DNA of 64,000 nt from Hymenobacter sp. YIM 151858-1. GTDB lineage: Bacteria > Bacteroidota > Bacteroidia > Cytophagales > Hymenobacteraceae. The stretch's first letter is position 1; each line of letters starts with the position of its first letter. A model generated the notes under the pieces. The model did no database searches, was not told the DNA's origin, and was given only the letters and a program-made list of their open reading frames with translations. The DNA is taken from assembly GCF_025979705.1 (NCBI RefSeq), contig NZ_CP110136.1, positions 2,294,001-2,358,000 on the forward strand. The letters are read 5' to 3'. Shown in pieces: positions 20,509 to 61,611 of the stretch. The translations under genes and the position numbers were made by a program.

Positions 20509-20579
20509 ATGCAAGCGTTTCTAAAGGAAAGAGGCAAGCAGTTATACTGCTTGCCTCTTTCCTTTAGAAACGCTTGCAT
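20509..20579. terminator. bidirectional terminator, perfect 33-bp inverted repeat
   Basis: Two arms of 33 bp (20509-20541 and 20547-20579) are exact reverse complements around a TTATA loop. The repeat lies between the convergent ends of the acyltransferase pseudogene and fdtA, 6 bp from the fdtA stop. It can serve as a terminator for both strands, although the stem is far longer than needed and lacks a classic U-tract. Confidence 0.75.
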
Positions 20580-25971: not shown

Positions 25972-26003
25972 TTGCCCCAGCTAAGCGTGAGCCGATAGGC
26001 ATT

Positions 26004-26043
26004 AACGAAAAGACCGCCCCAGGTTGGGGGCGGTCTTTTCGTT
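26004..26043. terminator. bidirectional hairpin terminator
   Basis: A perfect 17-bp stem (AACGAAAAGACCGCCCC and complement) around a short loop, with A-tract on one side and T-tract on the other. It lies between the convergent ACBP and FAD-oxidase genes and serves both. Confidence 0.88.
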
Positions 26044-26088
26044 GGTACCACCTAGGGCCTGAGTGAACAAGTGCCTCACGCGCAGCGC

Positions 26089-41392: not shown

Positions 41393-41409
41393 GGATTTCA
41401 CGAGCCCCC

Positions 41410-41701
41410 CACGGGGCACGGCCCCCTACCTCGCTCCAGGCGCGACATCGCGGAGAGGGGGAACAACGGCGGCGCGGCCGTCAGCAACGATTGCGGCGGC
41501 TGCGGCTCGCGCCTCCGCCGCCGCCCCGGTGTAGCCAACGGATTTCCGCGCTACAAGTCCTAGGTGCTTATGCTGACCAAAAGCAAGCGGGGCCGCCGAA
41601 CTTAGGTTCGGCGGCCCCGCAATCGTTGCTGAGGTTGCTGACGGCTGAATACCCCACTCCATGATGTCGCGCCTGGAGCGAGGTAGGAGCTGTGCCCCGT
41701 G
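41410..41701. repeat. nested palindromic repeat element (MITE/REP-like), family A
   Basis: Outer arms 41410-41449 and 41663-41701 are inverted copies (CTACCTCGCTCCAGGCGCG is exact). Inside is a second inverted pair around CGTCAGCAACGATTG (41479-41493) and a perfect 15-bp hairpin at 41587-41620 (GCGGGGCCGCCGAAC arm, TTAG loop). No coding frame is credible. It fills the gap between convergent genes, where the inner hairpin may act as terminator. The 15-nt core recurs in the element at 47214-47403. Confidence 0.75.
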
Positions 41702-41716
41702 GGGCCCGGGAGGCCC

Positions 41717-44974: not shown

Positions 44975-45577
44975 CTAGTGCTGGGCGGCGTTTTGCTGCA
45001 TGTAATCTTCGGATAGCACGCGGTAGCGGTCGAAAATGGAGCGCACCGCCCGCCGCATTACCATGGAGGCTTGGGCCGTGTTGGGAGCGGTTACGTTGGA
45101 TGCGTAGCCCTGCCACACGGCCCGGCCGTTTCGGTGGTCGATGAGGGTGATGAGCAAGGTGCCGTCGCTGAGCAGGTACCGCACGCGGTCGTAGCCCTGG
45201 CGCTGGTCGGCGGGCAGGTCTTCGGTTTCCACCACGTCCTGCTTCAGCCAGTGCATCAGGTCGGGCTGATCGTAGCCGGTAAAGCGCATGGCCCCGTCGT
45301 ACACCCGAAACGACACCAGCAGATCGGGCCGGCGCTGGTTGAGGCGGTAACCCTGCGAGCGAAGGTGCGTCTGGATGGCCTCGCGCACGGCCTCGTCGAC
45401 CGCCACGGCCGTATCGGCCTGCAGCTTGCTCATGCTTTGCAGAAAACCAAAGGTGCGGTAGTGGCGGAAGTTGCCGGCGTAGCTGTAATCCGACTCGATG
45501 CGGCTTTCGCGGGCTGTGAAACAGCCACTGAGTAACAGGCTTAGCAACGCGGCGGAAGCGGTAGCGGTGGGTTTCAT
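44975..45577 (-). CDS. DUF4136-type lipoprotein
   Basis: 200 residues from the ATG at 45577 (MKPTATASAALLSLLLSGC, a lipoprotein signal). SDYSYAGNFRHYRTFGFLQ, AVREAIQTHLRSQGYRLNQR and LLVSFRVYDGAM followed by GTLLITLIDHRNGRAVWQGY are the layout of DUF4136 proteins, periplasmic lipoproteins of unknown role common in Bacteroidota and Proteobacteria. Small, monocistronic, convergent with the barrel-like lipoprotein gene. Confidence 0.82.
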   Translation of the reverse strand: MKPTATASAALLSLLLSGCFTARESRIESDYSYAGNFRHYRTFGFLQSMSKLQADTAVAVDEAVREAIQTHLRSQGYRLNQRRPDLLVSFRVYDGAMRFTGYDQPDLMHWLKQDVVETEDLPADQRQGYDRVRYLLSDGTLLITLIDHRNGRAVWQGYASNVTAPNTAQASMVMRRAVRSIFDRYRVLSEDYMQQNAAQH

Positions 45578-45736
45578 AGGCTCGGAACGAAACGTTGGCG
45601 GTGAATCCAGAAGGTACTCAAAAATTCCGCTACGCAAAAACCCTATACATTGATACTCAAATTGTAGGCTCGACAACCGAGCAAAGGCTCGCAGAATTGC
45701 TATATTGCTTTTCCGGCCTTGTGCAGGGCTTTGCTT

Positions 45737-47200
45737 ATGCTCGAATTTTACCTCAACGACCAGCTGGTACGCCCCGCCCAACCCGCTGGCAGCACCCTCC
45801 TCGATTTCGTTCGTTATCAGCAGCACCTTACCGGCACCAAAATAGGTTGCCGCGAAGGCGACTGCGGCGCCTGCACCGTGCTGGTAGGCGAGCTGCAGCC
45901 CGACGACCAAACCGTGCGCTACCAAAGCATGACCAGCTGCCTCACGCCGCTGGGCAATGCCCACGGCCGCCACATTGTAACCGTTGAGGGCATTAGCCCC
46001 GCCGAAGGCCGCGCGCTTACGCCGGTGCAGCAAACCGTGGTGGCCGAGGGCGGCACGCAGTGCGGCTTTTGCACGCCGGGGTTCGTGATGTCGCTGACCG
46101 GGCATTGCCTGGGCGGTGCGGCTACCCCCGAGGCCACGCGCGCCGCCATGGATGGCAACATTTGCCGCTGCACGGGCTACAAGTCGCTGGAGCGCGCGGC
46201 TGATAAGCTGGCCGCCCACCTGCTGGAGCGCGACGCCGCCCCGGCCCGACTGGAGTGGCTGATTACGCAGGGCTTCGTGCCAGCGTACTTTGCCCACATG
46301 CCCGCCAAGCTGGCCCAGCTGCGCGCCGCCACTGCTGCCGATGTTGCCGCCCAAACCGGCGGGCGCACGCCCGCTGCGGCCGAGCTGCCGGCCAGCTGGC
46401 TGTTGGGCGGCGGCACCGATTTGCTGGTGCAGCGCCCCGACGAAGTGCTGGCCGCCGAGGTAAACCTGCTCTACGGCCACGCCACGCGCTGCTACGTGCG
46501 CGAGCTGCCCAACGGGCAAGTGGCCCTAGGTGGCGCCACTACCGTGGACGACCTGCGCCGCTCCGAGCTAATGCAGCGCCACTTTCCGCAGCTGGCGCGG
46601 CACCTCAAGCTGGTATCGAGCACGCCCATCCGCAACATGGCCACCGTGGCGGGCAACTTCGTGAATGCCTCGCCCATCGGCGACCTCACCATTTTCTTCC
46701 TGGCCCTAGGTGCCGAGCTGACGTTGCAGGACGCGGCCGGCCAGCAGCGCACTTTGCCGCTGCGCCAGCTGTACCGCGGCTACAAGCAGCTCGACCGCCG
46801 CCCCGACGAGCAGATTGTGGAAATCCGTTTCAGTCCGCCAGCTGCGGGCGAGGTGTTCAACTTCGAGAAAGTCAGCAAACGCACGCACCTCGATATTGCC
46901 AGCGTAAACTCGGCCGCCCGGCTGCACGTGGCCGAGGGCGTGGTGCAAGCGGCGCACCTGTCGGCTGGTGGCGTGGGGCCCACGCCGCTGTACTTGGGGC
47001 AGGCCTCAGCTTACCTCATCGGCAAACCACTTACGCCCGACACACTGCGCGGCCTGAACGAGGTGGCGCAGCACGAAATCAGCCCCATCAGCGATGCGCG
47101 CGGCGCGGCTGAATACAAGCGACTGCTCTTGCGCCAGCTGTTGTACGCGCATTTTCTGGAGCACTTTCCGCAGCATATAAGCTTGGCGGCGCTGGTGTAG
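45737..47200 (+). CDS. xdhA: xanthine dehydrogenase small subunit (2Fe-2S and FAD)
   Basis: 487 residues from the ATG at 45737 (an in-frame TTG at 45719 is less likely). The first [2Fe-2S] site has C38, C43, C46 (GCREGDCGACTVLVG) and C68. The second has C109, C112 (GTQCGFCTPGFVMSL), C143 and C145 (CRCTGYKS). The FAD domain begins near 215 with LLGGGTDLLVQRP and contains NMATVAGNFVNASPIGD. Electrons from the molybdenum subunit pass through these to FAD and NAD. Purine breakdown: hypoxanthine to xanthine to urate. xdhB follows, separated by a repeat element. Confidence 0.93.
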   Translation: MLEFYLNDQLVRPAQPAGSTLLDFVRYQQHLTGTKIGCREGDCGACTVLVGELQPDDQTVRYQSMTSCLTPLGNAHGRHIVTVEGISPAEGRALTPVQQTVVAEGGTQCGFCTPGFVMSLTGHCLGGAATPEATRAAMDGNICRCTGYKSLERAADKLAAHLLERDAAPARLEWLITQGFVPAYFAHMPAKLAQLRAATAADVAAQTGGRTPAAAELPASWLLGGGTDLLVQRPDEVLAAEVNLLYGHATRCYVRELPNGQVALGGATTVDDLRRSELMQRHFPQLARHLKLVSSTPIRNMATVAGNFVNASPIGDLTIFFLALGAELTLQDAAGQQRTLPLRQLYRGYKQLDRRPDEQIVEIRFSPPAAGEVFNFEKVSKRTHLDIASVNSAARLHVAEGVVQAAHLSAGGVGPTPLYLGQASAYLIGKPLTPDTLRGLNEVAQHEISPISDARGAAEYKRLLLRQLLYAHFLEHFPQHISLAALV

Positions 47201-47213
47201 CCGAAGGCCAAAA

Positions 47214-47403
47214 CTCCCCTCCTTCTTCAAGGAGGGGACGCCGTGCCGAAGGCGCGGCTGGGGTGGTTCCGTCGTTGCTGATGTTAGGTAGCGACTTCAA
47301 TCACCCACCCCAAACAAGCCCTAGGTCAACAACGTCAGCAACGATTGTCAACCACCCCAGCATCAGCAAGCTGATGCGTCCCCTCCTCATCTGAGGAGGG
47401 GAG
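47214..47403. repeat. long imperfect palindromic repeat element, family A
   Basis: Arms 47214-47268 and 47350-47403 are inverted copies (CTCCCCTCCT, GGAGGGGACGC and GCTGGGGTGGTT conserved; the centres of the arms differ). Inside, CCGTCGTTGCTGATGTT faces AACGTCAGCAACGATTG. The core CGTCAGCAACGATTG (47333-47347) is identical to that in the element at 41.4 kb. It occupies the whole xdhA-xdhB gap and, when transcribed, would fold into one long hairpin. Confidence 0.78.
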
Positions 47404-47429
47404 CTTTTTTCTCTCGCTTCGCTTCTCCC

Positions 47430-49745
47430 ATGCACAACCTCGACGCTGCCGGCCACGTGCGCGGCGAATCGCAATACCTCGACGATATTCCGGTGCAGCG
47501 CGGCACGCTGCACGCGGCCGTGTACGCCTCGCCGCTGGCCCACGGTAAGCTGAACGGCTTGCGACTGGAGGCCGCGCTAGCGGCGCCCGGCGTGGTGCAC
47601 ATCCTCACGGCGGCCGACATCCCCGGCGAAAACCAAATCGGTGGCATTGTACCCGACGAGCCGCTGCTGGCCGAAGGGCACGTGCATTTCAGGGGGCAGC
47701 CGGTGGCGCTGGTGCTGGCCGAAACCGAACCGCAGGCCCGCGCTGCCGCCAAGCTGATCGAGGCCGACATCGAGCCCTTGCCCGTAATTACCGATCCGAG
47801 GGTGGCCCACGCGCAAGGCGAGCTGATTGTGCCGCCCCGCACCTTCCGCCTCGGCGACCCCAGTGCAGCGTGGGCCCAGTGCGCGCACATCATCGAGGGC
47901 ACGGCCGAAAGCGGCGGGCAGGAGCACTTGTACATCGAAACGCAGGGCGCCTACGCTTACCCTACTGAGCAGGGCGGTGTGCGGGTGCACTCCTCCACGC
48001 AAGGCCCTACCGCGGCCCAACGTCACGGGGCGCGCGTGTTGGGCATTGGCATGCACCGCATCGAGGTAGATGTGGTGCGCCTGGGCGGCGGCTTCGGCGG
48101 CAAGGAAGACCAGGCTACTCCATGGGCTGTGCTGGCGGCCCTAGGTGCCTACCTGCTGAAAAAGCCCGTGAAGCTGGTGCTGCCCCGCCACGACGACCTG
48201 CGCATGACGGGCAAGCGCCACCCCTACTCCTCCGACTACAAGCTGGGGCTTTCGGCCGATCTGAAGCTGCTGGCCTACGAAGTTACCTTCTACCAAAACG
48301 CCGGTGCCGCGGCCGATTTGTCGCCGGCGGTGCTCGAGCGTACGCTGTTCCACAGCACCAATACCTACTTCATCCCGAATGTGCAGGCCACGGCTTACAG
48401 CTGCCGCACCAACCTGCCGCCCAACACGGCCTTCCGTGGGTTTGGTGGGCCGCAGGGCATGTTCGTGATTGAGTCGGCCATTGCCAAAGCGGCCGAGCAG
48501 CTGGGCGTGCCGGCGGCCGAAATTCAGCGCCGCAACCTGCTGCAGGAGGGCGACAAGTTTCCGTTCGGCCAGCCGGCCGAGCTGTGCAATGCCCACGCCT
48601 GCTGGCAGCGTGCCGAGCAGGCTTTCGACCTAGGCAACTGGCAGCAAGAAGTGGATGCCTTCAACCAAAGCAATGCACTGCACAAGCGCGGCTTGGCCAT
48701 CATGCCCATCTGCTTCGGCATTTCCTTCACCAAAACGGCCATGAACCAGGCCCGCGCCCTGGTGCACATTTACACCGATGGCTCGGTAGGCATCAGCACC
48801 GGCGCCGTGGAAATGGGCCAGGGCGTGAACACGAAAATGGTGGAAGTGGCGGCGCGCACCCTAGGTATCCGGAGCAACCGCATCCGCATCGAAACCACCA
48901 ACACTACGCGCGTAGCTAATACCTCGCCTTCGGCCGCTTCGGCCACCGCCGACCTCAACGGCAAAGCCGTGCAGCTGGCCTGCGAGCAGCTGCGCAAGCG
49001 TCTGCTGGCCTTGGCTGCCGAAGAGCTGTGCGTAGCCGAAGAAGGCCTGGAGATTTGCGACGAGCGGGTGCTCACGGCCGGCCACCCCGTCGAGTCGGAC
49101 TGGGAAAAGCTGGTGGCGTCCGCGTACTGGAAGCGCGTCAGCCTCTCCGAAAACGCGCACTACGCCACGCCCGATTTGTGGTTTGATCAGAAAACCGAAA
49201 GCGGCTACCCCTTTGCCTACCACGTGTACGGCACCGCCGCCGTGCAAGCCACCGTGGATGTGCTGCGCGGCACCTACGTGCTCGATGCCGTGCGCCTCGT
49301 GCACGATTTCGGCCAAAGCATGGCCCCGGGCATCGACCGCGGACAGGTAGAAGGCGGCCTGGTGCAGGGCCTGGGTTGGATGACCATGGAAGAATTGCTC
49401 TACGACGAGCAAGGCCGGCTGCTCAGCAATACCCTCAGCACCTACAAAGTGCCCGATTTGTACTCGGTGCCCGCCGATGTGCAGATCGAGTTCCTGGAAA
49501 CCGAAGGCCACCCGCGTGCCATTTTGCGCTCCAAAGCCGTGGGCGAGCCGCCGCTGATGTACGGCATTGGCGGCTACTTTGCCGTGCGCAATGCCATCCG
49601 AGCTGCTCGGCCCGATGTAGCGCCGGCGTTTTCGGCGCCCATCACGCCCGAAAAGGTGCTGATGGCTCTGTACGCACCTAGGGCCGAGGCAGCACCGAAT
49701 GCCGTATCGCAGGCGTCTGCAGCCCAAAGTGCCACCAGCGCCTAA
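47430..49745 (+). CDS. xdhB: xanthine dehydrogenase large (molybdopterin) subunit
   Basis: 771 residues, with the normal length and start (MHNLDAAGHVRGESQYLDDI). GGGFGGKEDQATPW, TNLPPNTAFRGFGGPQGMF (substrate-side Arg), GAVEMGQGVNTKMVEVAART and NTSPSAASATADLNG bind the molybdenum cofactor. KAVGEPPLMYG near the C-terminus holds the catalytic base, about E706. It hydroxylates hypoxanthine and xanthine. It is read in the same direction as xdhA and xdhC; the palindromic element immediately upstream may lower its translation or separate its expression from xdhA. Confidence 0.94.
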   Translation: MHNLDAAGHVRGESQYLDDIPVQRGTLHAAVYASPLAHGKLNGLRLEAALAAPGVVHILTAADIPGENQIGGIVPDEPLLAEGHVHFRGQPVALVLAETEPQARAAAKLIEADIEPLPVITDPRVAHAQGELIVPPRTFRLGDPSAAWAQCAHIIEGTAESGGQEHLYIETQGAYAYPTEQGGVRVHSSTQGPTAAQRHGARVLGIGMHRIEVDVVRLGGGFGGKEDQATPWAVLAALGAYLLKKPVKLVLPRHDDLRMTGKRHPYSSDYKLGLSADLKLLAYEVTFYQNAGAAADLSPAVLERTLFHSTNTYFIPNVQATAYSCRTNLPPNTAFRGFGGPQGMFVIESAIAKAAEQLGVPAAEIQRRNLLQEGDKFPFGQPAELCNAHACWQRAEQAFDLGNWQQEVDAFNQSNALHKRGLAIMPICFGISFTKTAMNQARALVHIYTDGSVGISTGAVEMGQGVNTKMVEVAARTLGIRSNRIRIETTNTTRVANTSPSAASATADLNGKAVQLACEQLRKRLLALAAEELCVAEEGLEICDERVLTAGHPVESDWEKLVASAYWKRVSLSENAHYATPDLWFDQKTESGYPFAYHVYGTAAVQATVDVLRGTYVLDAVRLVHDFGQSMAPGIDRGQVEGGLVQGLGWMTMEELLYDEQGRLLSNTLSTYKVPDLYSVPADVQIEFLETEGHPRAILRSKAVGEPPLMYGIGGYFAVRNAIRAARPDVAPAFSAPITPEKVLMALYAPRAEAAPNAVSQASAAQSATSA

Positions 49746-49778
49746 GTCGGATTTAAGTTATCTGGAGTTGCTTTTGCC

Positions 49779-50792
49779 TTGAGCTTGCTTACCGCTTCCC
49801 CTTCCGTTCCGCGCGATTTGCCGGTGTGGCAGCACGCCTGTGCGTGCCTGCGCGCCGGCACGCCCGCTACGCTGTTGCTGGTGGTAAGCAGCAGTGGCTC
49901 GAGCCCCGGCCGGCAGGGTTTTAAAATGACGGTTGCGCCGGGCAGCATGGCGGGCTCGGTGGGCGGCGGCATCATGGAGCACAAGTTTGTGGAGCTAGCG
50001 CGCAGCCGCATGGCCGAGGGCAACCACGAGCTGCTGCTGCGCCCGCAAATACACCGCAGCGAAGCGCCGCACCACCGCTCCGGCATGATTTGCTCGGGCG
50101 AGCAAACCTTGCTGCTGCTGCCGTTGCGGCCCGCGCACCTGGCTGCACTCGATGCGATTGTGGAAGTGCAGCAACGCGCCGGCAACGGCTGGTTTGAAGT
50201 GCGGGCCGATGGCTCTTTGCACGTGGGCACCGGCCCGGCACCTAGGCCGCTGGGCTACGCCCCCTACACCGCCCTAGGTGCCCACGATTGGCGCTACACC
50301 GAGCACCTGGGCTTCCGCGACCAGCTTACCATTATCGGGGCCGGACACGTGGCGCTGGCGTTGTCGCGCATCGTGGCCACGCTCGATTTTCACCTCACGG
50401 TAATTGACGACCGGCCGGGGCTGAACACCCTGCTCGACAATCCCTACGCCCACCAAAAGCACTGCGTACCCTACCACGAGCTGGCCGGCACCGTGCCTGC
50501 CGGCCCGCACCACTACGTGGTCATCATGACGTTTGGCTACCGCTCCGATGCTGTTGCCTTGCGCCAGCTCATCAACCACCCGTTGGCTTACCTAGGGCTG
50601 ATGGGCAGCGAAGCCAAAATTGCTCAGCTGTTTGCCGAGCTGCGCCACGAGGGCTACACCGAAGCCCAGCTGAGCCGGGTGCACGCGCCCGTAGGCGTGC
50701 CCATTAGCAGCCGCACGCCCGAGGAAATTGCCATCAGCGTGGCCGCGCAGCTTATTCAGCAGCGCAACGCCCCGCCGGCGGCGCGCACCTAG
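49779..50792 (+). CDS. xdhC: xanthine dehydrogenase maturation factor XdhC
   Basis: 337 residues. The N-terminal XdhC/CoxI domain shows ATLLLVVSSSGSSPGRQGFK, MAGSVGGGIMEHKFVELA and GMICSGEQTLLLLPL. The C-terminal Rossmann domain shows LTIIGAGHVALALSRIVATL, PHHYVVIMTFGYRSD and YLGLMGSEAKI. XdhC inserts the sulfurated molybdenum cofactor into XdhB. No ATG fits: translation appears to start at TTG 49779 (a GGAG lies 11 bp upstream) or TTG 49785. Gap to xdhB 33 bp. Confidence 0.9.
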   Translation: MSLLTASPSVPRDLPVWQHACACLRAGTPATLLLVVSSSGSSPGRQGFKMTVAPGSMAGSVGGGIMEHKFVELARSRMAEGNHELLLRPQIHRSEAPHHRSGMICSGEQTLLLLPLRPAHLAALDAIVEVQQRAGNGWFEVRADGSLHVGTGPAPRPLGYAPYTALGAHDWRYTEHLGFRDQLTIIGAGHVALALSRIVATLDFHLTVIDDRPGLNTLLDNPYAHQKHCVPYHELAGTVPAGPHHYVVIMTFGYRSDAVALRQLINHPLAYLGLMGSEAKIAQLFAELRHEGYTEAQLSRVHAPVGVPISSRTPEEIAISVAAQLIQQRNAPPAART

Positions 50793-50864
50793 GGCACGGC
50801 CACCAGCGGGGCGTTGCGGTTGGGCGGCCGTTGTTATTCCGAGGAAGTTGCCATGCCGGGTAAG

Positions 50865-50964
50865 TTGTCATTCCGAGCAGAAGCGAGGAATCTGGTGGGA
50901 GCATCAAGACGAACGCGTGGCCAAAACTCTTGTCCAGATTCCTCGCTTCCGCTCGGAATGGCAA
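50865..50964. repeat. inverted repeat element, TCATTCCGAGC/GAGGAATCT type (family B)
   Basis: Arms 50865-50893 and 50936-50964 are 29 bp each and match at 27 positions when inverted; the intervening 42 bp is unrelated. A partial copy (TTATTCCGAGG) lies just upstream at about 50833. The motif is of a kind I recall as frequent between genes in Bacteroidota. It sits between convergent genes and could act as a terminator or mobile miniature element. Confidence 0.75.
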
Positions 50965-50993
50965 GCCAGATAAACCCGCTGCCGATGCACGAC

Positions 50994-51575
50994 CTAGCGC
51001 TTTGCCGCTATGGCTCGTTGCGCTGCGGCAGTGGCCGGGCCATAGGTCGGCTGAATCATGGCTAGCTCATCGATAGCAAAGCCCGACGACTTAACCCAGC
51101 GCAGGAACTCCGGCGTGCGGATATCCTCGATGCGGTCGTACTGGTGCCGGGCGTTGATTTGCTCGGCCAGCTCGCGGCCGGCGGTTTGCTCGATCAGGTA
51201 CGCCACGGCACAGGGGCGGCCGGTGCGGTCGATAAAGCACGGGCGGCGCTCGTGCGGAAAATCGTAGTTGGCGGGGTATTGTCCTGCCATCCAGTAATTG
51301 CGCAACAGCTTAAGGGCGTGGTAGCGGTTGCGGCGCTGGCGGTTGGTAAGGGCGCGGGTGCCTTTGCGCTGCAAAAAAGCCTCTACGTACTGAAAATGGG
51401 CCGTTATGCGTAGGTGTTCGTTGGTGGTAGCAGTGGGCTCGGTGCCAAACTTGCGGACGTAGCTTACGTCGCCGATAACCGCATTAACGGCCTCGGCGGA
51501 GGACGGTTTGCGCTGGCAGCACACGCACAGCAGCGCGCCCAGCAACAGGTGGGTGAGGATAAGGGGCAGTTTCAC
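50994..51575 (-). CDS. uncharacterised secreted protein, conserved in Bacteroidota
   Basis: 193 residues from a GTG at 51575. The N-terminus MKLPLILTHLLLGALLCVCC looks like a lipoprotein or secretion signal. The core HERRPCFIDRTGRPCAVAYLIEQTAGRELAEQI, then IRTPEFLRWVKSSGFAIDEL, matches a pattern I recall in unnamed Bacteroidota proteins (RRPxFIDxxGxxCAVxxLI). Cysteines in the core are conserved in that pattern. Function unknown. No operon partner. Confidence 0.7.
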   Translation of the reverse strand: MKLPLILTHLLLGALLCVCCQRKPSSAEAVNAVIGDVSYVRKFGTEPTATTNEHLRITAHFQYVEAFLQRKGTRALTNRQRRNRYHALKLLRNYWMAGQYPANYDFPHERRPCFIDRTGRPCAVAYLIEQTAGRELAEQINARHQYDRIEDIRTPEFLRWVKSSGFAIDELAMIQPTYGPATAAAQRAIAAKR

Positions 51576-59662: not shown

Positions 59663-61611
59663 GCCTAGGTTGGTTTTCCTTTTCGCAGCTGCGTGCGGCA
59701 GTGGCCGCTGCCTTGTGCCTGGGGCCGCTACCCGGCCGCGCTGGGCAGGCCCCGCAGTGGCCGGTAAGCAGCATTGCGGCACCGCTGCGCCAGAATGCGC
59801 ACGCCGTAATTCGGCAGCAGGATGATATCCTGACGGTAAAGTCGGCGGGGCGCATGGTATACACCGTACACCGCGTGGTAACCGTGCTCGATGAGCAGGG
59901 CGACAACTGGGGCGTGGCCGCCGTGCCCTACGACAAGCTGACCCAGATAAGCTACCTGCGTGGCACCGTGTACGACGCCCAGGGCCAGGTGGTGCGTACC
60001 CTGCGTGCGGCCGACATCAAGGACTACAGCAACGTAAGCGGCGCCAGCCTTTTCGAGGACAACCGCATGCGCGTGGCCGACCTGCGCCAGCCCCGCTACC
60101 CCTACACCGCCGATTTCACCTACGAGTACAGCTCCGACAATACGCTGAACTTCCCGACCTGGAGCCCCCAAGACGAGGAGCACGTAAGCCTGGAGCATGC
60201 CACCCTGCGCGTAACCACCCCGCCCGAGTTGCCGCTGCGCTACCTCGAGGAACGGCTACCCCAAGGCGGCGCGGTCGTCAAAAGCCAGCAAGGCAGTCAG
60301 TTGGTGTATGCCTGGCAACTTACCAACCTGCCGGCCCTGGAGCGCGAGCCGTACAGCCCCCCCGTAGCCGAGCAGGTACCCACCGTGTACACCGCCCCTA
60401 CCGCTTTTGAGGTGCAGGGCTACCGCGGCGACATGACCACCTGGCAAGGCCTAGGTAAGTGGGAGTACGACCTGAACCAGGACCGCGGTGAGCTAAGCCC
60501 CGAGGCCAAGGCCAAAGTGGCCGCCTTGGTGAAGGACGTAACCGACCCGCGCCAGCGCGTGCGCAAGGTGTACGAGTACCTGCAGAACTCCACGCGCTAC
60601 GTGTCGGTGCAGCTGGGCATTGGCGGTTGGCAGGCGTTTCCGGCCAGCACCGTGGCCAGCACCGGCTACGGCGACTGCAAAGCGTTGTCGAACTACTGCA
60701 TGGCACTGCTGCGCGCCGCCGGCGTGGAAAGCTACTGCGCCATTATTGGGGCCGGCGACCAGCGGGCGGCCATCCGCACGTCGTTTCCGAGCAACCAGTT
60801 CAACCACATGATTTTGTGCGTGCCCATGGCCAAGGATACGGTGTGGCTGGAGTGCACCTCGCAGAGCGAGGCCTTTGGGTACCTAGGCTCGTTTACGGGC
60901 GGGCGCCACGCCCTGCTGCTTACGCCGCAAGGGGGCAAGCTGGTGCGCACGCCGGCCTACGCTGCCGCCGCCAACGGCCAGTTCCGGAGCGCCAGCGTAA
61001 CGATCGACGCCCAAGGTTACGGCCGCGCCACGGTGCGCACGGTTTCCTCGGGCCGGCAGCAGGATGAGCTGGCGCAGATGATAGCGGCGCTGCCGCCCGA
61101 CGAGCAGCGCAAACGCGCCTACGCCCGCCTCGATTTGGCCGCGGTTACCATCGAGCAAAGCAGCTGGCAGCCCAACCACCAGGGCGTGCTGCCCACCGTT
61201 ACCGAGCGCCTCACGCTGGCCCTGCCCAGCTACGCCTCGCTTACCGGACGGCGGCTGTTTTTGGTGCCCAACCTGCTGAACCGCCTGCCGCCGCCTGCGC
61301 CCAGCGTGGGGGCGCGGCAAACGCCGCTGGAGTTGCACCTGCCCTTTAACGATGCCGATACCGTGCGCTTTGCGGTGCCGGCCGGCTACAAGCCCGAGTC
61401 GGTGCCGGCGCCGGTGCAGCTGCGCACGGCGTTTGGCAGCTACGATGCCCAGGTACAGGTGCTGCCCGATGGCACTATCCAGTACATCCGGCGGCTGCAA
61501 ATGCCCAGCGGCCGTTTCGGGGCGGCGCAGTACGAGGCCTACGAAGGCTTCCGGCAGCGCATCAGCAAAGCCGACCGCATGCAGCTGGTGCTGGTGCGGC
61601 CCGAGTCCTGA
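59659..61611 (+). CDS. DUF3857 protein with intact transglutaminase-like site (copy 3)
   Basis: 650 residues. It starts at ATG 59659, overlapping the previous stop. Signal-like N-terminus (1-about 29), DUF3857 (about 60-230), then a transglutaminase core: GYGDCKALSNYCMALL with C340, SNQFNHMILCV with H383 and VWLECTS with E398 where Asp is usual. So copy 3 may be catalytic, unlike its two partners. The three form one operon, and the pairing of one potentially active with two inactive members suggests a complex. Role unknown. Confidence 0.85.
   Translation: MSLGWFSFSQLRAAVAAALCLGPLPGRAGQAPQWPVSSIAAPLRQNAHAVIRQQDDILTVKSAGRMVYTVHRVVTVLDEQGDNWGVAAVPYDKLTQISYLRGTVYDAQGQVVRTLRAADIKDYSNVSGASLFEDNRMRVADLRQPRYPYTADFTYEYSSDNTLNFPTWSPQDEEHVSLEHATLRVTTPPELPLRYLEERLPQGGAVVKSQQGSQLVYAWQLTNLPALEREPYSPPVAEQVPTVYTAPTAFEVQGYRGDMTTWQGLGKWEYDLNQDRGELSPEAKAKVAALVKDVTDPRQRVRKVYEYLQNSTRYVSVQLGIGGWQAFPASTVASTGYGDCKALSNYCMALLRAAGVESYCAIIGAGDQRAAIRTSFPSNQFNHMILCVPMAKDTVWLECTSQSEAFGYLGSFTGGRHALLLTPQGGKLVRTPAYAAAANGQFRSASVTIDAQGYGRATVRTVSSGRQQDELAQMIAALPPDEQRKRAYARLDLAAVTIEQSSWQPNHQGVLPTVTERLTLALPSYASLTGRRLFLVPNLLNRLPPPAPSVGARQTPLELHLPFNDADTVRFAVPAGYKPESVPAPVQLRTAFGSYDAQVQVLPDGTIQYIRRLQMPSGRFGAAQYEAYEGFRQRISKADRMQLVLVRPES

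Follow-up and report, generated by a model that had tools for sequence, protein, structure and literature searches.

The gap between xdhA and xdhB in Hymenobacter sp. YIM 151858-1 holds a near-palindrome that we regard, with high confidence, as a copy of a dispersed, non-coding repeat of the REP/BIME-like kind, here named F1. The overall explanation that we favor, and consider probable, is that an F1 copy has settled in a permissive xdhA–xdhB gap; tolerated repeat traffic is likewise the likely account of why F1 is present there. Other palindromes occupy this gap in related species, so that it looks like a spot of repeat traffic, not a conserved switch. Positions are those of the window (the whole stretch of DNA that was analysed, 64,000 nucleotides), except for seven-digit positions, which are those of the genome.

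The xdhA–xdhB junction

The small subunit gene, xdhA, encodes the Pfam domains Fer2, Fer2_2, FAD_binding_5 and CO_deh_flav_C, and the large subunit gene, xdhB, encodes Ald_Xan_dh_C, MoCoBD_1 and MoCoBD_2 (Table 1). The TAG stop codon of xdhA (47198-47200) and the ATG of xdhB leave a gap of 229 nt, occupied by a near-palindrome of ~198 bp whose stem begins 14 nt past the xdhA stop and has its last base 27 nt ahead of the xdhB ATG. The RNA fold of positions 47190-47440 has a predicted energy of -121.4 kcal/mol (z -8.4), and 0 of 200 dinucleotide shuffles are equally stable; the initial annotation, which had described a gap-filling near-palindrome of about 190 bp, is borne out on this point. An inverted-repeat search finds outer arms of 32 nt that are 78% complementary and two inner blocks, one of 12 nt with 100% and one of 14 nt with 93% complementarity. 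The palindrome is imperfect because each arm has a side hairpin of its own, the two not being copies of one another; the mutual difference of its two hairpins 2 is thus one reason why this copy is only "near"-palindromic. The GGGGTGGTT/AACCACCCC motif occurs once in each half of the element, and a further match, at 60213 in the window, is solitary; a BLAST search of the strain's own genome finds no second F1 copy within the window.

Table 1. Features of the xdhA–xdhB junction (window coordinates).
Feature	Position	Strand	Evidence
xdhA, small subunit (2Fe-2S + FAD domains)	45719..47200	+	ORF, Pfam
F1 element: near-palindrome, BIME/REP-pair-like	47210..47407	.	inverted repeats, fold, ~41 places in own genome
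Left arm hairpin 1, CCCCTCC..GGAGGGG type, near-invariant within F1	47215..47238	+	inverted repeats, arm survey
Left arm hairpin 2, sequence variable among copies, pairing kept	47240..47258	+	sequence, fold, covariation
F1 motif GGGGTGGTT, left	47260..47268	+	motif search
Left inner arm TCGTTGCTGATGTT	47272..47285	+	inverted repeats
F1 core; differs or holds another palindrome in other copies	47286..47330	.	copy comparison
Right inner arm AACGTCAGCAACGA	47331..47344	+	inverted repeats
F1 motif, right (AACCACCCC on +)	47350..47358	-	motif search
Right arm hairpin 2, GCATCAGCAAGCTGATGC	47360..47377	+	sequence, fold, arm survey
Right arm hairpin 1, terminator-like, 10 pairs	47379..47402	+	terminator-site search
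T6 run past right hairpin	47405..47410	+	sequence, terminator-site search
xdhB, large molybdopterin subunit	47430..49745	+	ORF, Pfam

F1 is a dispersed family of double-hairpin arms

The xdh element, used as a BLAST query, returns 129 pieces in its own genome, which we grouped manually into ~41 places including xdh, a few of them single arms or hairpin 1 alone; the earlier view that the palindrome belongs to a repeat family therefore stands. The other 40 places all lie between genes called with a simple purpose-made gene caller (tolerating overlaps of at most 45 nt), 26 of them in tandem, 9 in convergent and 5 in divergent gaps. Many F1 arms come as inverted pairs, and several places have one recognizable arm only. 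An F1 arm is present in 90 of 200 family genomes (E 1e-5).

The 62 arms of the own genome comprise 35 long and 27 short ones. The long arm runs in the order inner block, AACCACCCC, hairpin 2 and CCCCTCC..GGAGGGG, while the short form measures ~125 bp, is devoid of hairpin 2 and mostly reads AACCACCCCTAGCCCCTCC.... Several long copies enclose a second palindrome in their core (GTCATGCTGAGC...GAAGCATCTC), which is that of another family, F3.

The two hairpins of the long arm are conserved in different ways, the sequence of hairpin 1 being almost invariant among copies and hairpin 2 varying in sequence with its pairing retained. Across 25 distinct hairpin-2 sequences of the own genome, 158 of 175 pairs are standard ones, against a mean of 116.6 and a maximum of 131 in 1000 shuffles, in a test that ignores kinship and excludes 8 short GCCCTTCGGGCA hairpins and duplicate sequences; several positions carry 3 or 4 pair types. 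Six F1 arms from other Hymenobacter loci give 39 of 42 pairs, which is not above the shuffle maximum of 39. The pair-based test supersedes a cruder, bulge-free stem score, by which stems of at least 5 occur in 16 of 35 arms (shuffled mean 3.7, maximum 9).

At the foot of hairpin 1, the 35 long arms carry CGTC (17), GCAC (8), CATC (7), CATT (2) or GCGC (1). A T-run of at least 3 follows just 23 of the 35 long and 4 of the 27 short arms, so a terminator is not general to F1. Elsewhere in the genome (2170132-2170897; L044), direct F1 right arms at 2170132 and 2170803 flank ~590 nt that appear ORF-like by eye, and the relative G004 lacks this stretch, with one F1 arm left in its place; F1 arms may thus act as recombination sites.

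The same gap in relatives

We compared 34 Hymenobacter-group xdh gaps, made up of 30 named loci, the own locus and those of G003, G004 and G007. The gap measures 58-921 nt and is closed in none of the 34, which makes an open gap a trait of the group and not of the strain. Outside Hymenobacter, xdhA and xdhB lie within 10 nt of each other in 26 of 46 measurable loci and overlap in 20, some of the start codons being derived from alignment; 4 further loci have no xdhA match upstream. The initial annotation had taken adjacent or overlapping xdhA and xdhB to be the norm, and this holds for many loci outside Hymenobacter, although not within the group (0 of the 30 named loci).

The gap contents differ among these loci. 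We looked for one conserved sequence at every xdh locus, which the initial annotation had set against its reading of an inserted element, and found none: F1 is full at 4 of the 34 loci, halved at 1 and a remnant at 1. Among the 8 genus members, the full element occurs in the own genome, G004 and G003. The gap of Solirubrum (G005, L100) combines a right F1 half (99% identity, 78 bp) with a different palindrome that replaces the left half, and that of H. busanensis (G001, L099) retains a 25-nt F1 remnant. This remnant scores z 10.2, with 23 of 25 letters matching and 0 of 200 shuffles as good, when both arms of the own and G003 elements serve as the query; with the own right arm alone, nothing in the H. 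busanensis gap exceeds z 4. The same four-arm test gives z 5.2, 4.4 and 3.8 in the C-rich F2 gaps L105, L114 and L106 and 3.5 in L101, none of which we count as F1. H. edaphi (G002) and G007 share one sequence other than F1, and Hymenobacter sp. CRA2 (G006) has still other hairpins.

Across species, the gap palindromes sort into families F1-F8, whose separateness rests on motifs and eye, apart from the four-arm remnant test for F1; F3, F4 and F5 have a common GTCATNCYGAGC-like outer stem. Thirty of the 34 gaps are no longer than 450 nt, and 21 of these fold with z <= -4 (19 with z <= -6). Three loci have short, plain gaps (L115, L117 and L112, of 58, 59 and 88 nt), and six further gaps fold with z > -2 (L098, L099, L108, L116, L119 and G007). 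Four gaps contain ORFs, of 154, 158, 167 and 169 aa in L109, L111, L118 and L130, respectively; the L109 ORF has a DUF433 match below threshold (20.5 bits, cut-off 23.6), and that of L118 has no Pfam match. As a side observation, the ORFs of L109 and L111 look alike, as do those of L118 and L130, and L109 and L111 stand far apart in the tree.

On a maximum-likelihood tree of the 34 loci, built from XdhA and the N-terminal 300 residues of XdhB, the gap type, which takes 14 labels, must change 20 times or more (minimum 13), and the 22 loci labelled F1-F8 need 10 changes (minimum 7). The labels were assigned from motifs and by eye (F3 in L113, where the motif script gave none, is a visual call), and L134 fills less than half of the alignment columns. 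One fully supported clade of 4 near relatives contains F2, F3 and two cargo versions in its gaps. G003, which carries F1, nests next to two F8 loci, and its F1 could therefore be a second arrival. Separately, the xdhAB genes of Hymenobacter sp. BT188 (L169) group with Spirosoma in the tree and have an F3 palindrome in their gap.

Is the hairpin, or the position, under selection?

Palindromes are frequent in other gaps of these genomes, so the xdh gap is enriched and not unique. In 443 kb round xdh in the 8 genus genomes, the gaps of 50-400 nt that reach z <= -4 number 26/33 if convergent, 24/117 if tandem and 1/40 if divergent. Genes were called here with a simple codon-score caller, which misses genes in the opening 20.5 kb of the window, and that part was excluded. 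For the xdh gap of the genus, the count is 5/8 against 20/109 other tandem gaps (Fisher p 0.011), or 4/8 when the gap borders are set differently, the G006 gap scoring z -7.0 or -3.9 depending on its edges. At other Hymenobacter loci, 16/21 xdh gaps are palindromic against 14/38 other tandem gaps (p 0.006, phylogeny ignored); this test took 21 of 26 xdh gaps, four of the excluded ones exceeding its 400-nt limit.

This last excess counts against pure tolerance, with the caveat that the loci are not independent, and both comparisons fit selection at the level of structure. According to that explanation, a spacer hairpin is needed for 3'-end protection, translation decoupling or partial termination; any palindrome serves and the families swap. 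The prevalence of stable folds in the shorter xdh gaps speaks for it, as does the gap palindrome at the Spirosoma-grouping locus. Against it stand the plain, weakly folding and ORF-holding gaps described above, which indicate that xdh loci can do without a strong hairpin, together with the frequency of palindromes in many other gaps and the expectation that the subunits of XDH are made in equal amounts. We consider structure-level selection unlikely.

A bolder proposal is that unlike palindrome families are interchangeable at fixed intercistronic positions in the Hymenobacter group, each keeping a large transcribed hairpin, with arms that dock swapped small cargo genes; position, and not sequence, would then be what is selected. 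Read in this way, Solirubrum would be a replacement caught midway. At the sites orthologous to the own F1 copy at 3122171 (L222, L223), the sister genomes G004 and G005 carry F3 arms that bracket cargo, different in each, and one ORF of the G004 cargo has a GIY-YIG domain (57.8 bits, cut-off 22.6). We rate interchangeability at fixed positions as distinctly unlikely.

Of 80 family genomes, 31 contain the F3 pattern, namely 8/8 of the own genus (g1), 23/23 of g5 (presumably the rest of Hymenobacter) and 0/49 others, one genome having as many as 309 + 291 matches; an F2 pattern is likewise found in 31 of 80, in g1, g5 and g6.

Other palindromes of the window are recorded here as observations in their own right. 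The convergent gap at 41393-41716 holds a 324-bp composite palindrome; the orthologous gap is 67-97 nt long in seven other genus members, where it mostly contains a long GC-rich palindrome with outer arms that vary by species (entirely so between G004 and G005) yet stay paired. At 50793-50993, the own genome has a palindrome of the GTCATTCCGAGC/GAGGAATCT family, and six other genus members have 21-102 nt without it. A 34-bp perfect palindrome with a 3-nt loop lies at 20509-20579. Across the 7 genus members compared, the convergent gap at 25972-26088 has strong palindromes (z -4.6 to -14.7) whose sequences differ, and this turnover resembles that at xdh.

Mobility and overwriting

The dispersal of F1, its inverted hairpin pairs and the 4 Y1_Tnp (RAYT-type) genes of the own genome would all suit a REPIN moved in trans by a RAYT, a Y1 HuH transposase. 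The genus has 13 Y1_Tnp matches in 6 of its 8 genomes. F1 arms lie within 1.5 kb of none of these 13 loci, 10 of which have another REP-like palindrome nearby, and one (L181) has an F3 half-motif ~1.1 kb from the Y1_Tnp gene. The GTAG tag is absent from the hairpin foot of all 35 long F1 arms, and G006 has F1 arms and no Y1_Tnp match. By these tests, F1 is REP-like but not a RAYT-linked REPIN; a RAYT as its mover is unsupported, and we judge such mobilisation improbable.

The Solirubrum gap does contain a RAYT-linked type. The palindrome in place of the left F1 half can be aligned along ~105 nt to a REP pair that both the own genome and G004 have next to a RAYT-type gene, and the TAG of this repeat's GTAG doubles as the xdhA stop codon. 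Such provision of a stop codon is described for GTAG REPs in an earlier survey (PMC3733652). The Solirubrum gap shows one repeat overwriting another and is a mosaic of two families.

Comparison of four own copies with G004 and G005 yields no clean empty/filled pair, excision or target duplication. The short copy at 2430026 is common to both relatives; that at 3113755 is also in G005, where its right end is altered, and has no flank match in the G004 stretch; the copy at 2444299 shares its left arm with them and differs in the remainder; the fourth comparison is the cargo-bearing site at 3122171.

The initial annotation had also raised a recent insertion at xdh, which, as a strain-specific event in a once-intact operon, would agree with the touching or overlapping xdh genes of many loci outside Hymenobacter. 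F1 stands at this position in G004 and G003 as well, and the Solirubrum half and H. busanensis remnant mark it there too. The empty site that the annotation suggested looking for is found in none of the 8 genus members, and the gap is open at 30/30 named Hymenobacter-group loci. Recent insertion is contradicted by these shared sites, and we give it very little credence.

Least credible is an ordinary conserved xdhB leader or riboswitch: a stable RNA fold does lie immediately ahead of xdhB, but related sequence stands at ~40 other places in the genome, and the explanation is contradicted by a gap sequence that is unconserved among xdh loci and lacks any Rfam match, the scan of the window at gathering thresholds returning only a tRNA.

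Possible effects on xdhB expression

The segment 47379-47410, a GC-rich hairpin of 10 pairs followed by T6, looks like an intrinsic terminator. Ten terminator-like sites lie in 45500-51100, and this one is the richest in pairs; shuffles of the region yield 5.6 such sites on average, so a match alone is weak. Its likeness to a terminator makes a damping of xdhB by F1 plausible, and the tuning of the xdh subunit ratio that the initial annotation had suggested is possible. A measurable effect of F1 on xdhB is conceivable to us, though we lean somewhat against it.

The TTTG...TANNTTTG arrangement is a Bacteroidetes promoter motif. Neither it nor a sigma-70-like promoter was found in the xdhA–xdhB gap, in what is a weak test for both, and there is thus no evidence of a private xdhB promoter. 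Relatives with plain gaps of 58-59 nt show that the hairpin is not indispensable.

For enterobacterial REPs, one report (PMC12306157) lists attenuation, protection of mRNA 3' ends and ribosome stalling when the REP is within 15 nt of a stop codon. With its 14-nt spacing, stable hairpin and T6, the xdh copy of F1 has the right predicted geometry for all three.

Comparison with known systems

Enterobacterial REPs and BIMEs are dispersed palindromes that can sit in operons between cistrons. F1 resembles them as a set of dispersed, inverted-pair palindromes that are mostly intergenic, close to the 3' end of the gene before them and sometimes inside operons, and it displays their many extragenic copies, kept self-pairing hairpin and inverted pairs. 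F1 departs from them in an arm of ~75 nt with two hairpins and a GGGGTGGTT block, in the lack of a GTAG foot and in the other palindromes that some copies hold in their core.

MITEs are short, non-coding, multicopy elements with terminal inverted repeats. F1 is like them in each of these respects and unlike them in that neither a target duplication (in four own copies compared with G004/G005) nor a parent transposase (at 13 Y1_Tnp loci) was found. The likeness to REPIN-RAYT systems lies in the genus genomes, which have RAYT-type genes beside REP-like pairs, one such type being that of the Solirubrum gap, whereas none of the 13 Y1_Tnp genes has F1 beside it. The right hairpin with its T6 resembles an intrinsic terminator, and F1 differs from a plain one in belonging to a dispersed repeat of which only some copies have the T-run.

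CGTC-tagged palindromic repeats, a class with four family consensuses, are reported by Di Nocera et al. (2013, PMC3733652) from Bacteroidetes among other phyla and without a dedicated transposase. The likeness to F1 seen here is in the tag, CGTC standing at the foot of hairpin 1 in 17/35 long arms; hairpin 2 and the long arm are additional features of F1. Bacteroidetes TnpA_REP genes of subclass 2.6 are described with atypical flanking structures (PMC6006769). In the open-access papers searched, we found no study of such repeats in Hymenobacter, the two that mention this genus among those listed being on other subjects by title.

Proposed history and significance

The settlement of an F1 copy in a permissive gap may be outlined as follows:

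(i) F1 would have arisen or spread as a single-strand (hairpin) element, and may now be renewed through recombination or conversion between its dispersed copies.

(ii) A copy entered the permissive xdhA–xdhB gap, probably before the close relatives split. The gap may be hit often because insertion 3' of a stop codon, far from the promoter, would be tolerated.

(iii) In RNA, the element would shield the 3' end of xdhA, while the right hairpin and T6 could cause partial termination, with xdhB possibly made in lower amounts than xdhA.

The REP/BIME-like kind of repeat is already known, and the notable part is the turnover of palindromes at one junction. F1 adds a family of double-hairpin repeats for which no mover is known. 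The junction offers ready alleles (no palindrome, F1, F2, F3, a REP pair and a cargo ORF) for measuring the effect of an intercistronic hairpin on the downstream gene. Followed across 34 loci, it is a natural experiment in which palindromes arrive, overwrite each other and open an operon.
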